Assembly: GCA_037833965.1 (NCBI GenBank) | Contig: AP031353.1 | Location: 19,346,501-19,410,500 of the forward strand | Source: Marchantia polymorpha subsp. ruderalis | Taxonomy: Eukaryota > Streptophyta > Marchantiopsida > Marchantiales > Marchantiaceae | Reading direction: 5' to 3' | DNA: 64,000 bases | In this document: piece after piece, positions 9,721-37,751 of the stretch | How the letters are laid out: the number at the start of each line of letters is the position of its first letter | How positions within the stretch are numbered: the first letter of the stretch is position 1 | Program-made: the position numbers and the translations under genes | The notes under the pieces: model-generated | The model's database searches: none | Told to the model about the DNA's origin: nothing | Seen by the model: the letters and a program-made list of their open reading frames with translations, nothing else

Positions 9721-10464
9721 AAGGACCAAAATGCACGAGATGGAATAATGCTGACTGAGCTGAGTCCCCTCTCGTATACAGGTCATGGTCGCCAGGTTGA
9801 GGCGAACTGTCGTGAAGGCAGAGCTGAATCGAAGCTTCAGAGCGGACCAATTTCAAGAGCCATAACACAGAATTCAGATGTTCGGGTACTATACAACCTC
9901 TCTTTTGACATAGCGTGGCATGGTTTTGCGTGTCTGTGCATGGCTGGCCAAGGCTAATGTGGTTGTGAGGGCAGGACGACGAGGGCACAATCAATTCTGG
10001 ACCTTCTCCTCACAGCCTTCATCGTCTCTTGAGCTGAAATTTATTGAACAAGGACAAGGATACCGTTAGCAGTCTTCGTTCCTTCTCGTAAACATGTACT
10101 TCACAGGCCTGGAAAACGCTGACCATGCTCATAACTGAATCTACAATGCTCGACCGACTGTTGTTGACGTAATTCAACTCTCGCTCGCTAATCTGGCAGT
10201 ACTTTCCTACAGAGAAGGGCAGCAATGATGATGTGAAGTGGATCCCTAGAGCTTAGTCATCCATCCATCCAACACAGCAGTCGCAGGCCTGCGCGTTGCC
10301 TGCCTCGTGACCAAATCCACTTGGAGTGACACTCTGTAAAGTGCTCATCTGTCCAGTAACAAAACTAGAATAACGTGGCTCAAACAGATGTAGAAAGTGC
10401 TGAAAGTTCGGGGAAGTGAGACGGAGACAGAGATCTGCGTCATAAGGTTGCGATCAGGACGGGA

Positions 10465-12090
10465 TTAGGACAAATTTTGGATTTGGTAGACGGATCGAGG
10501 TCTCAGAGAAGCATCCAAAGGCAGCTTCATCTGATTGATTACTCCGAACTCCGAGGAGGAGGTTTCGTCGAAGGGCTTGGGCTTCCCTTCGAAGGCCGGC
10601 AACACGTCAAAAGACTGCAAAATTTTGGCGATCAGGATCTGAGCTTTGTGAGTCACGAGTCCCTGCCCGGGAGAGAACCTGCGGATGCCGCCGAGCACAT
10701 CGGACTGCAGCTGAATCTTCTCGGGCTCCTCATGCTCCTCGTCTAGGTCGGCGAAATGTCGCTCCGGGCGGAACTCGAAGGGGCTGTCCCAGACATTGGG
10801 GTCCGTATACACTGCAGGAATGTGAGCGATGACGGTAGTTCCTGCAGGCAGATGGTACATGCCGTCGCTCACATCCAGAGGCTTGGTGGTCGTGTGCGGC
10901 AGAGTGAGCATGACGGGATGGTTCACGCGCTGCGTCTCCTTCACCACGGCCTTGAGGTACGGCATCTTCTCGATGTCGCTCTCGGAGATGTTCTTGCTGT
11001 CGCCCACGACGCGGTCAATCTCGGCCTGGATCATGGCCTGCATGTCGGGGCGGTAGATCAACTGGCCCAGCGCCCATTCCACCGTCGTCGAGGTGCTGTC
11101 CGTGGCGGTGAGCATGATCTCGCTCAGGATCCACGTGATCTCGCGATCCGTGAGCCGGTCCTCGCCCTGCAGATTGCACAGAACGTCGAGGAAACTATGC
11201 ATCAGGTTCGACCTCTTCTGGTCCTTGGGCTGGAAGCGCTTGCGGATGATTCCCACCGTCTGGACGCAGCATTCCTCCGCGCGCTTGGAGCTCTCCGCGA
11301 ACTCGATGTCCGCCATCGTGTCCGGCATCTCGCGCAGCACGGGCAGGTAGTCGGAGAATCGGCTGGAAATCCCTAGCCTCACCACGTCCTTGAACGCCGT
11401 GAGCAGCCGCACCAGCTGGTGGTCCATGAGCCCGGTCGACAAATCGACGACGCTGCCGAAGCAAGTCGTGAAGAGAAGGTCCAGAATTCCGAACCGCAGA
11501 TGGGACCGCGCGTTGACGACGAAGCACTTATTCGTCGACGCCTCCTGCTTCAGATTCTCCATCATCACGGCCAGAACGTGGTCCCGGTTGGACTCGCGCA
11601 GAGGCCGAAAAGACGTCTTGCTGCTCGTGCTCATCAGGTACGACGACAGGATCCTTCGCAGTCGTCGCCACTGCGGGCTTTTGTGCGGCGGAATGTTCAC
11701 GTACCGCCGGTACCCTGTGGCCGATTCGCCCATGCTCACCGCTCCGCCGTGCAGCATCCTGCCTGGCCTGGACTCGAATGTGTCGGGAGGGTTCTTGGAC
11801 GAGAAGAGCTCCTGCACGACCTGCGCCGAGGTGATGATCACGGTCGGGTGCGAGCCCACCCACAGCGCCATCACCCCGCCGTAGTTGTCACAGACCTTGG
11901 CCAGCATTCGGCACGGGCTCGGCCCCAGCTGCAGCGCGTTGCCGAACACTGGCCACGGGCGAGGCCCCGGCGGCAGGCGCTTGGCGGGCCTGTTGTGCGC
12001 GATCTGCAGGGCCAGCTTCGTGCCATGGACCACGACCACCACGCCGATGATCGCCCCCAGACTCAGTTTCACGCCGTCTTTGAGATTCAT
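10465..12090 (-). CDS. Cytochrome P450-like protein lacking the heme-ligand cysteine, 541 aa
   Basis: A single-exon P450 fold. From the ATG at 12090: N-terminal membrane anchor (about residues 9-31), proline hinge PPGP (40-43), C-helix WRRLR (W141, R145), I-helix TATDST (about 328-333), K-helix ETQR (E385, R388), and FRPERHF (R444). The heme loop reads LGGIRRFSPGQG: against the family signature F-x-x-G-x-R-x-C-x-G, F is L, G is I, and the thiolate cysteine is serine (residue 473, codon TCT at 10672-10674), while R and the last G remain. The length is normal for plant clan-71 (A-type) enzymes, which are ER-anchored monooxygenases; I cannot name a CYP family. The open frame also extends upstream to a GTG at 12105 without a better ATG. 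Without the cysteine, normal oxygen activation is unlikely; a non-oxygenase role, a recent pseudogene, or a sequencing error are the alternatives. Confidence 0.9.
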   Translation of the reverse strand: MNLKDGVKLSLGAIIGVVVVVHGTKLALQIAHNRPAKRLPPGPRPWPVFGNALQLGPSPCRMLAKVCDNYGGVMALWVGSHPTVIITSAQVVQELFSSKNPPDTFESRPGRMLHGGAVSMGESATGYRRYVNIPPHKSPQWRRLRRILSSYLMSTSSKTSFRPLRESNRDHVLAVMMENLKQEASTNKCFVVNARSHLRFGILDLLFTTCFGSVVDLSTGLMDHQLVRLLTAFKDVVRLGISSRFSDYLPVLREMPDTMADIEFAESSKRAEECCVQTVGIIRKRFQPKDQKRSNLMHSFLDVLCNLQGEDRLTDREITWILSEIMLTATDSTSTTVEWALGQLIYRPDMQAMIQAEIDRVVGDSKNISESDIEKMPYLKAVVKETQRVNHPVMLTLPHTTTKPLDVSDGMYHLPAGTTVIAHIPAVYTDPNVWDSPFEFRPERHFADLDEEHEEPEKIQLQSDVLGGIRRFSPGQGLVTHKAQILIAKILQSFDVLPAFEGKPKPFDETSSSEFGVINQMKLPLDASLRPRSVYQIQNLS

Positions 12091-14260: not shown

Positions 14261-16623
14261 CTACTTGGCAAGCTTTATGTTTCCAATCATCCCTCTGATT
14301 GCTGAATACGTACCTACAGATCCTGTAATAATCCCGATGAACACAACAACAATTAGTACAGGATATTCTGCTGATGATATTCCCCCTGCTCGACCGTATA
14401 TTTGTAGGTAACACAAGCAAGGAAGGATGACCGCCACCGAGATACTCAAAAAAGATCCAATGAAGCCCATCATCAGGCCGAAGAAGGGAATCGCAAGTGC
14501 GACTACGATTGTGCTTAAAACGAGGAGACTTCTAATACAGACAGATCCCACCATGAATTGCTTGGACTTTGGAGACCAGGGCAAAAACTCTTCCAAGGCT
14601 ACTGCAAGTGGGGTAATGGTCAATGCAAACTTGGCGAAGGGGTTCACGAGAATAATCCATATTGCGATTCTAGAGGAGATCAAAGTCTTTGGCAAATTTA
14701 GAGTGACTTGCGATTCCACTTCGTCTCCAAACATGGTGTAGCCCATGACTCCTACGCCTCCATACATGATGGTAACGGCAGTAAAGCAGACGATAAGCAC
14801 CTGCCGTAAAAACCATGAAAGATATTAGTTGCGTCCCCAGTAACGATGACCAATAGAAAATTATGCAGTTGATTGGTCTTCCATTGCACTGAAAATGAGG
14901 CTCAAGAAGAAACCTCAGAAACAGGTTAGTAATACATACCCAGACTAAGACCACCCAATTTCTCAAAGACAAACCTAATGAAACCACGGACCTGCATTCC
15001 ATGCAGTGCAGAAAGACTGCTGCTCTCAACAAAGAAGACCTGCTAGGTTCGGAGTAGAACAGACATACCTTTGAAAATTGCTCTTGGTTTTTCATGGATC
15101 TGTAGATGCTGGGGAAAACGGCATGCCCACAGAAGCAGAATGCACATATCCCCACGGCAACTGGAAGTCCACTGAAATTTACAAGAGTTCCCGTATGACT
15201 GAACCCTACACCTTCAAAGGCTCCCACATATCCCACTGTGGATAATATCGCCAAGACTGCTATCACTCCTCCGGCTGATATGTACGACAAGACGCCCAAA
15301 TCCCGTAACCACACCGTCGGCATAAAGATGAGTCCTGAAAAGATGATGTACAATTGATGCGCACTGATTCTCGAATTGCCAATGTTGACGTCCGTGAATG
15401 GGAAAATATTGGCCAGATTATCTCCTTCCATTATCAGGTACTCCACCGTAACGCAGTAGAGTTCGAAGTACAGCATTATGGAGACCAGTAACCGTCCTTT
15501 CCGCCCAAAGGCTGCTTGGCCAATATCTGGGTAGGAGACAATTGAAGGGTCTGCGTCCAGGCACTTTCGAAGAAGGATCCCTGTGTAAAGACATATGACA
15601 GCGAACAATAGAAGAAAGCCCAAAGTAGACCAACCTCCCTGCGAGAGAGCGTATGGTGTGGACAAAATTCCAACTCCTGACAAAGAGGAAACGCAGGAAT
15701 TAGAATGTACTGATTTATGTTGCCGCTCATCATTGGGATGACATCGACTGTAGTCCTGACACCTACACATATGGACGATGCACGCAATCTAACAATGTAG
15801 ACAGCCAAAGTAAATCCGATACAATGACATCTCAAATCTAGAGGGAGACTGATGTTAGCCATGGCTCCCAAATCCACGCATCTTACGAGGAAGAACCACA
15901 ATCCAAAACCAATACGTCCAGGTTGACAGTTTCCACCTTGAAGCTAACACGTTGAAACATGTGCCAGATACTAGACGGCAACGCAGGGGCCATGATCATT
16001 ACTATACCTGCAAGAACATTCGTTCCATTCAAGCAGGCCTGCACGAATGAACTCTCGCCTCCCACAAGCACCTTGTCATCTTCTTCTCTAACGTCTGCTG
16101 CTTCATTCGCGACCAGAGATTGCTCGTCCTCTTTGATGGAACGACTTCTTGAATATCCAAGTTTCCCGCTCGTCCTCGCAGACGCACTCCGTAGCAAGGG
16201 CTCCTTCAGAGGGTCATCCCACTTTGAATGCAGGAGCACAGATTCTTTGGAATCCGCGTCCAATTGGTCAGCGCTGATACTATCGCCATTCAAGTTCGCG
16301 TCACAAACTTCCTCACGATACTTCCCGCTAAGCGAGCGACTGTATATTTCCATCTGTCTTTCAAAGCTTTGAGGCCACAGAGCGCCTCTTCTTGAAAGAG
16401 AAGATGAAACACGAGACAGCGCCGAAGGTGATCTCCCGAAACTTGCCTTTATGGGAATCGCATCGGCTTGCGCCAAACGATGCTCGGGTATTAGATTGAG
16501 ATGCGGCACCTCGTCGCCATCCCGTGGAGGAATGTCAGCACTTTCTGCCCGTCCTCCACACTGTGTAGAAGAACTGTTCGTGTTGCCGTTGCCAAGTTCT
16601 GGCACATTGTCTTCTTCACTCAT
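14261..16623 (-). CDS. AVT1-type vacuolar amino-acid transporter (AAAP family), 587 aa, three exons
   Basis: Exons on the minus strand: 16623-16008, 15676-15069, 14800-14261. Donors GTATAG and GTATGT and acceptors TTTGTCAG and CGGCAG join in frame to 587 codons. Residues 1 to about 190 form a hydrophilic Ser-rich cytosolic tail (SRVSSSLSRR, EEDDKVLVGG), typical of plant AVT1 proteins. The remainder is the 11-helix amino-acid/auxin permease fold, opening with LNGTNVLAGVGILSTPYALS, the conserved unwound first helix that binds substrate. Later landmarks are YFELYCVTVEYLI, CAFCFCGHAVFPSIYRSM and GVMGYTMFGDEVESQVTLNLP. AVT1 members exchange neutral amino acids across the tonoplast using the proton gradient. 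The first intron falls exactly within the GVG motif codon. The start is the only ATG consistent with the conserved tail. Nothing looks broken. Confidence 0.93.
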
Positions 16624-35500: not shown

Positions 35501-37751
35501 TCAAAGCTGATCATCCTTAGGCAGCATTCGAACAGTCTCACCTGCAACGTCCCTTGAAACGTTGTCACTATCATGCTTCCTCTGCTCATCTTCTACATCC
35601 TCCACATCTTCTAGTGGCTGATGCTGTGAATCTTTGGAATTGAAAACATCCAGTCGGATGTGGGTATCTGATTGGAATTGCATGTTCGACTCACGAACTC
35701 TGTCACGATCATCAGGATACGTCCAGTAAAGAAGTGTGTAGATAGAAGAACACAAAACAAATGGTATGCCGGTTGACGTATAAAGTGCTTTGGCCAACGC
35801 TACGGCATTCGACCTGTCAGTAGCTAATCTACCATCACCTGATGGAGGTGGAACATAACCATACAAATTTTCGGCGAGCAGGCCAACTATGGGAGGGGCA
35901 AACGATGCAAGAACTGTCTCAAAAGCTCTATCCAACGCATACACATTCGTTCTGGACTTTTCCGGAACAATCTCCGCAAAAATAGGCCTGTGTACAAAAC
36001 AATACATTCCGTAAGATATACTTGTTGACAGTTTTTAGTCCTTGTGTCAAGATTCACAAACCTTGCAATCGTAACAAACAATACAATATTACAGAGTGAA
36101 CAAACTAAAACACCTGTCCATACTAACCTAAGCAAGTTAAAAAATTAAAAAATCATAAGGGGAGGTGTAAGCAGCATCACCCATTAGTAGCAGAACCATT
36201 CCAAGATATGCATAGTCCCATAATGAAGAAGGCCAATCCATGAACTACTGGTGTCGAAGGATCCGAAGGAAGGAGAAGAAGCAGGACTGCTCCAAGGGGA
36301 ACCCCTAGACCAGCACTGATTTGTGAGAGCATAATTCGACCTGTATTAGGAAGTCTGATGGACAAACGATCTCCAGCCCAACCACCAAAAAGAGCTCCAA
36401 TAGAACAAGCCACAACAAAGCAGCCCATGAGAGCAGCAGTCATTGTGTGGGAAAATCCTACAAGCTCCAACCACATAGGGGCAAATGCAAGTGCAGCCCA
36501 AGGAAATGACCCAGCAACGCCTTGTGCTACGAACACTTGGAAGGATTTCACATGTAACACGCTTTTTGTATCGAGCCATATCTCCTTCAAGTTGTCCATA
36601 AAAGTTCGATCTTTGAATGCCCTATGATCAATATAGCTCAAAGAGTTCAGAAAAACTTCCATAGTTTGTAAAATGTTCATAAAACGTCACAGTATTGTAA
36701 CTGGACAAGCCAGACTTACCTACTGCACACTTAGATTAAAACACGTAGAGCTGAATTTCAGAAAACATGGTTTAGCTTTTCAATGTGAACTTACAAAAAA
36801 AATATAATACCTCAAACAATGCAAACTTACTTGGAGACAAGAGTTCCGGAGAATTGAGGGTCGACTGCATATGAGTACACAAGACCTGCAACTATCATAC
36901 TCAAGAAGGCCACTAAATGGAATGCCATCCTCCATCCGTCAATGCCTAAAATTTCTGTGCTCGCCATGAGAACAGCAAAAAAACCACCCAGCATAGATCC
37001 AACGTTTCCAGCCACCATGAGCCAACCAAAACCTTTGCCTCGGTTTGTTTCGTCTGTTGCATCTGCTACCATTGACTGTATAGAAGGGACCACTACCGCT
37101 AGACCTATTCCATTCAGTGCCCTGGATAGAGCCACCTGCATCCACCAGCATCAAAGTCAATCCTTCTTTCTGGAATCGACGAGAAGGAGCAACTAAAGGT
37201 GTAGAAGAACGTATACTATGCAGATTCTCAAGAAATGAGGTGTCATCAGCTTGTCAGTCAGCTGATTCTCTTCTGATGGAAGAGATTGGCACATTCCTAG
37301 TCCAAGATTCCTTTGACTACATGGTGCTAAATACTTGAAATATGAGACAGTCCAGTGTTTTCATACACATTTTAAGACTTATCACTTATAAGTAAAAAGT
37401 AGAGATGAGTTTAAACAGTTGACGAGATCAAGAAAGATGACCAACCTCGGAAAAGGTTTCTGAAATTCCGACAAAGAAAGTGGCAACAGCCCACATGACA
37501 GCTCCACCAGCAATTATGCTTGCCCTGTTGTAATGTTGGGCTAAAAAACCCGCTAATGGTGCGCACAAAGCCTGCATTAGGGATCTAACAAGTGTGAGGC
37601 TACCCAGCGCAGATGGGCTTGCATTGAGTGCTATACCTATCTCTCTGTAAACAGAGGGTAAAAGAGCCTCATCTGCTCTCTCCAGTATGGAAGCCAAGCA
37701 CACGAGCACCAAGCTCCGCATCCTCACATCCTTCCACCACCAGGGTGCCAT
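35501..37751 (-). CDS. UNE2-like major facilitator superfamily transporter, 512 aa, four exons
   Basis: Exons on the minus strand: 37751-37446, 37135-36831, 36621-36181, 35987-35501. Donors GTTGGT, GTAAGT, GTGATG and acceptors GATGCAG, TGATCATAG, GTACACAG join in frame to 512 codons. The product is a 12-helix MFS carrier of the plant family that includes Arabidopsis UNE2 (At1g78130). Landmarks: LERADEALLPSVYREIG and SALGSLTLVRSL in helix 1-2, the loop HYNRASII, VALSRALNGIGLAVVVPSIQ in exon 2, FPWAALAFAPMWLELVGFSH and the motif-A-like GGWAGDRLSIRLPNTGRI in exon 3, and PIFAEIVPEKSRTNVYALDR in exon 4. The last 70 or so residues form a hydrophilic acidic tail. The substrate of the family is not established to my knowledge. 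No defect seen. A possible extra 5' exon (37924-38006) is discussed in the findings. Confidence 0.93.

Follow-up and report, generated by a model that had tools for sequence, protein, structure and literature searches.

A stretch of 64,000 nucleotides from Marchantia polymorpha subsp. ruderalis (assembly GCA_037833965.1, contig AP031353.1, positions 19,346,501 to 19,410,500 of the forward strand), called the window here, was analysed for a gene of the cytochrome P450 (P450) family that carries serine 473 (Ser473) at the position of the heme-thiolate cysteine. The gene lies on the minus strand at window positions 10468-12090, with its ATG at 12090 and a TAA stop at 10467-10465. Its frame of 541 codons is uninterrupted on translation, as a first-pass annotation of the same DNA had stated. 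The protein matches the Pfam p450 family (PF00067) at 2.9e-72, with 244.4 bits against a cut-off of 22.8. The match covers profile positions 1-450 of 462, which correspond to residues 40-514; this family test, a profile match across the whole domain, assigns the protein to the P450 fold. The best sequence match in the PDB is ferruginol synthase (5ylw, E 4.1e-49). The P450 domain is intron-free in a single open frame, as in several other full-length P450s of the genome. The gene is located on contig 4 of the nine-contig genome and is single copy; a DNA search of the 241-Mb assembly returned only the gene itself. The features of the gene are as follows.

10468..12090, minus strand: P450-fold protein frame of 541 codons (PF00067 match, 5ylw match, translation); stop at 10465-10467
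11995..12075, minus strand: membrane-anchor-like N-terminal helix, residues 6-32 (sequence; a helix in the structure model, of low confidence there)
11962..11973, minus strand: proline-rich hinge PPGP, residues 40-43 (conserved positions 41, 43, 47 and 50 retained)
11656..11670, minus strand: C-helix WxxxR, W141 to R145 (sequence; R145 retained, as in 38 of 40 others)
11095..11109, minus strand: I-helix oxygen site TATDS, residues 328-332, where AGxDT is expected (alignments to 5ylw and paralogues)
10927..10938, minus strand: K-helix ExxR, E385-T-Q-R388 (E385 and R388 retained, as in all 45 others reaching these columns)
10756..10767, minus strand: PERH at the PERF motif, residues 442-445 (R444 retained, as in 68/68 others; F445 changed to H, F in 67/68 others)
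10666..10695, minus strand: degenerate heme loop LGGIRRFSPG, residues 466-475 (profile alignment, codons)
10672..10674, minus strand: codon TCT for Ser473, where the heme-thiolate cysteine is expected (cysteine in 89/89 other loops read)

From its sequence and the modelled helix, the N-terminal segment may act as a membrane anchor. An AATAAA at 10040-10045 (minus strand), some 420 bases past the stop codon, is a possible polyadenylation signal. The I-helix, ExxR, PERF and heme-loop motifs are 51, 53, and 20 residues apart, distances within those given for A-type P450s of soybean in PMC9048032.

The minus-strand codons 10695-10666 (CTC GGC GGC ATC CGC AGG TTC TCT CCC GGG) read L-G-G-I-R-R-F-S-P-G. 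The profile aligns this loop to FxxGxRxCxG with L466 at the Phe position, I469 at the Gly position and S473 at the Cys position; both codons and alignment confirm, in the assembly, the substitutions described in the first-pass annotation. That annotation had also listed four other motifs as kept. Two of them, WxxxR (W141...R145) and ExxR (E385-R388), are intact; the PERF motif reads PERH, and the I-helix reads TATDS in place of AGxDT. Judged as a heme-thiolate monooxygenase, the protein has the K-helix ExxR (E385, R388), but Ser473 replaces the axial cysteine, and the loop Phe and Gly are both replaced in LGGIRRFSPG. By ancestry and fold the protein is a P450 that lacks the defining heme-thiolate feature, and the label of monooxygenase is unwarranted. 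A normal oxidising enzyme is unlikely; the gene would be either a repurposed relic or recently dead.

A splice form supplying a cysteine-bearing loop, which the first-pass annotation had allowed for, found no support. The strict loop pattern had no match in the six frames of the window, a pattern that an intron-split loop would evade, and the P450 profile placed only the 541-codon frame above threshold in the window, with no second piece. A relaxed pattern gave three window matches besides the loop itself. The cysteine-bearing sequence LGEGLRMCIG (18951, minus strand), found with the relaxed pattern, was rejected as an alternative exon because it lies upstream of the gene and has no P450 profile match listed.

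The heme loops of the same genome were extracted from its P450 matches. After removal of duplicate loci and antisense artefacts, 90 distinct loops remained, including that of the Ser473 protein; only the best candidates of the genome search were scored (92 of 366), and some P450s may be absent from this survey. The other loops have Cys in 89/89, Phe in 89/89, and Gly in 88/89. The Ser473 protein is the only one of the 90 without Cys, and the only one without Phe, so the oddity of its loop exceeds chance. At one locus (L049, C3:20753600-20761700), one of two P450 loops is FDARRRRCVG, with Arg for Gly and the Cys kept. A partial match at C7:10928395 showed no loop within the 1.2 kb examined. The genome also holds CYP73-, CYP98-, and CYP78-like genes, recognised by their motifs. 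M. polymorpha is listed with a genome of 225.8 Mb and 115 CYP proteins (PMC9937507). The cysteine is called invariant in P450s (PMC3990721) and absolutely conserved in a plant alignment (PMC9937507), and every soybean family row in Tables 1 and 2 of PMC9048032 has it. Searches of an open-access literature library showed no report of a plant P450 without this cysteine; cysteine-less homologues are known from bacteria and oomycetes.

A phylogenetic tree was built with FastTree; of the 82 P450s assembled for it, 44 were aligned over enough columns to be included (the Ser473 protein in both counts). The Ser473 protein groups with the pairs L004/L005 and L006/L007 (support 0.81), and next with the CYP78-like L024 (0.94). 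This places it in the CYP71 clan. The seven proteins of the genome that match the Ser473 protein over nearly its full length are 26-32% identical to it. The two pairs and L024 are closest to it by the tree. The pairs resemble it in their intron-free P450 domains and share 27-32% identity with it near full length; L024 matches it in two exons, at 25% and 35% identity. All five have the cysteine, unlike the Ser473 protein. L006 (1387-2931) and L007 (1405-2949) keep the cysteine and have the I-helix sequences ASSLS and SGSHT, without the acid-alcohol pair (L004 has GGTDT); thus oxygen-activation residues drift in this clade too.

Soybean CYP703 and CYP79 normally carry PERH, and soybean CYP703 (AATDTS) and CYP73 have Ala as the second residue of the I-helix motif (PMC9048032). 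Because working families show the same residues, PERH and TATDS were not counted as decay. Membership in CYP703 was rejected despite these CYP703-like features, because the Ser473 protein shared 30% identity over 414 columns with an approximate Arabidopsis CYP703A2 query and was only the 24th genome row for it. No relatives of the Ser473 protein were found in viral_contigs.

Conserved columns were defined as at least 95% identical in up to 68 other P450s, with a minimum of 25 letters in each column. L049, L022, duplicate loci and 13 divergent non-A-type sequences were left aside, and 26 columns resulted. The Ser473 protein retains 20 of these, including 15/15 ahead of residue 411. The six departures all lie from residue 411 on: G411M, F445H, F466L, G469I, C473S, and a single C-terminal column where the protein has a gap.

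These analyses suggest, at somewhat less than even odds in our judgement, that the gene encodes a P450-fold protein of the CYP71 clan that has given up monooxygenation and been retained as a binding or scaffolding protein. This option, the one favoured here, was added to the two of the first-pass annotation, a serine P450 under conservation and a newly arisen pseudogene. The hinge, WxxxR, ExxR, and the open frame are retained in the sequence; the thiolate cysteine and two further loop residues are lost. Without the thiolate, the usual ferryl oxidant presumably could not form. Normal monooxygenation would not be expected, as it is abolished in CYP2B4 by C436S (PMC9820634). The protein might instead have been retained for a non-catalytic role, in which it would bind a small molecule, heme, or a partner enzyme at the endoplasmic reticulum membrane. 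It may work like EryCII and DesVIII, cysteine-less bacterial P450 homologues that activate glycosyltransferases. Binding or scaffolding is preferred over a fresh pseudogene because nature keeps such cysteine-less homologues for other jobs.

EryCII and DesVIII naturally lack the heme-thiolate cysteine, as the Ser473 protein does, and are described as glycosyltransferase partners (PMC3391682). These proteins (NCBIfam TIGR04515) are bacterial, and EryCII has no heme and partly lacks several helices; in contrast, the Ser473 protein is a full-length plant protein with an anchor-like N-terminus. It was rejected as a member of TIGR04515 (P450-derived glycosyltransferase activator), with 20.1 bits against a cut-off of 343; it may work like a member while standing outside the family. 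Among eukaryotic P450s, six CYP5619D proteins of oomycetes are reported without the cysteine (PMC5919972). They belong to a P450 fusion-protein family whose function is untested in that source, and the likeness is by description only. A putative catalytically inactive P450 complex of a bacterium is described in a passage of PMC11574762 that does not mention its cysteine. A plant P450 that has lost this cysteine and kept everything else would offer a natural experiment on the uses of the fold in the absence of a thiolate, and on whether the serine ligand introduced by engineers is already in use in nature. A fresh pseudogene would be ordinary.

Several observations weigh against a retained binding or scaffolding protein. 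The loss of 6/26 conserved columns exceeds that in 26 other P450s, which lost at most 4 of 24-27 columns in a leave-one-out comparison; the Ser473 protein is thus the most degenerate of the 27 sequences, with its losses at the heme-proximal end. Its terminal branch is also the longest of the 44 in the tree (1.5; L008 is next with 1.35). These losses and the long branch may reflect relaxed constraint. The GC content at third codon positions (GC3) of the frame is 0.835, compared with 0.593-0.825 in ten other single-frame P450s. The GC content is 0.41 in the window and 0.606 in the 510 bases upstream of the gene; since the 5' flank is GC-rich too, the high GC3 is partly regional. Over the final 90 codons GC3 drops by 0.16 (0.86 to 0.70). 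This exceeds the drop in all eight paralogues compared (largest 0.12; four drop by 0.05-0.12), and may be either a sign of decay or a chance effect. The structure model is weak, with a mean predicted local distance difference test score (pLDDT) of 60.5 and values below 50 for residues 466-472. Its alignment rows included 9 of 12 distant bacterial P450s from genome_contigs, found with another query; the other 3 had no clean frame and were left out. No partner of a known type was seen among the 8 of 12 other window open reading frames (ORFs) of at least 150 amino acids that were scanned (three gave transporter matches and five gave no match); in a plant, the partner might be encoded away from the gene. 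Moreover, CYP74 of soybean lacks the loop Phe and Gly yet keeps the cysteine (Table 2 of PMC9048032). A functional enzyme could therefore have acquired F466L and G469I first, leaving C473S as the only recent change.

The strongest rival is a gene that died recently: an unusual but functional P450 would have lost its cysteine lately and drifted neutrally, before stops and frameshifts could accumulate. We regard this as possible, though somewhat doubtful. The order of events was examined by simulating neutral divergence from the present sequence, by substitutions only (indels ignored), with 1500 runs per point. At 0.5, 1, 2, 3, 4, 5, 7.5, and 10% divergence, the probability of no stop was 0.77, 0.61, 0.41, 0.26, 0.15, 0.09, 0.03, and 0.009, respectively. 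For these points, the chance of a change at two or more of the four remaining conserved loop sites was 0, 0, 0.009, 0.026, 0.033, 0.059, 0.115, and 0.177. The two probabilities multiplied never exceeded 0.0067. Since this is below 1%, decay of the loop after death of the gene is unlikely. The starting point at the present sequence, the absence of indels and the treatment of the two probabilities as independent all tell against leaning on this result in favour of a retained protein.

A recent death escapes the simulated limit if the loop changes came first, as the CYP74 loops would permit; at 1% or 2% divergence the frame would still be open with a probability of 0.61 or 0.41, respectively, by substitutions alone. 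The long terminal branch, the number of lost columns and the low GC3 of the last 90 codons also fit a dead gene. On the other hand, the product above applies if every loop change postdates death, the loop Phe and Gly are nearly uniform in the other loops of this genome, and no conserved position ahead of residue 411 has been lost.

An enzyme that still uses heme, with Ser473 or water as the fifth ligand and electrons from a reductase, is unlikely. Such an enzyme would catalyse other chemistry, for example NADPH oxidation releasing peroxide, or an isomerase or lyase type reaction independent of a thiolate-driven ferryl species. R145 and R471, heme-propionate contacts in P450s, are retained, as are the D331-S332 acid-alcohol pair and ExxR. 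The laboratory variants P450BM3 C400S and CYP2B4 C436S have serine at the ligand position as well; the former is better at carbene and nitrene transfer, and the latter shows NADPH oxidase activity without monooxygenation (PMC9820634). However, the Ser473 protein differs from them in that the loop Phe and Gly beside the ligand are also altered, and most CYPs mutated at the invariant Cys, Glu, or Arg are described as inactive, misfolded forms (PMC3990721). Still less probable is a natural, heme-loaded, serine-ligated plant P450 under selection for a reaction or a signalling role with which a thiolate would interfere, such as reductase-driven peroxide production at the endoplasmic reticulum. An assembly error at the serine codon is highly improbable: TCT and a true TGT differ by one base, but the L and I substitutions would remain unexplained, and since replacing F by L, G by I, and C by S takes at least 4 base changes in three codons, a one-base error cannot account for the loop, as the first-pass annotation had reasoned.

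Among the neighbouring ORFs, the one at 15883-16623 had no family match in the ORF scan. Two overlapping ORFs in different frames at 14261-15770 (minus strand) match complementary parts of Aa_trans (PF01490, amino acid transporter), and by sequence they look like exons of one gene. At 36177-36680 (minus strand), a weak match to MFS_1 (E 9.9e-08; 31.7 bits, below the cut-off of 33.4) is perhaps one exon of a transporter gene.
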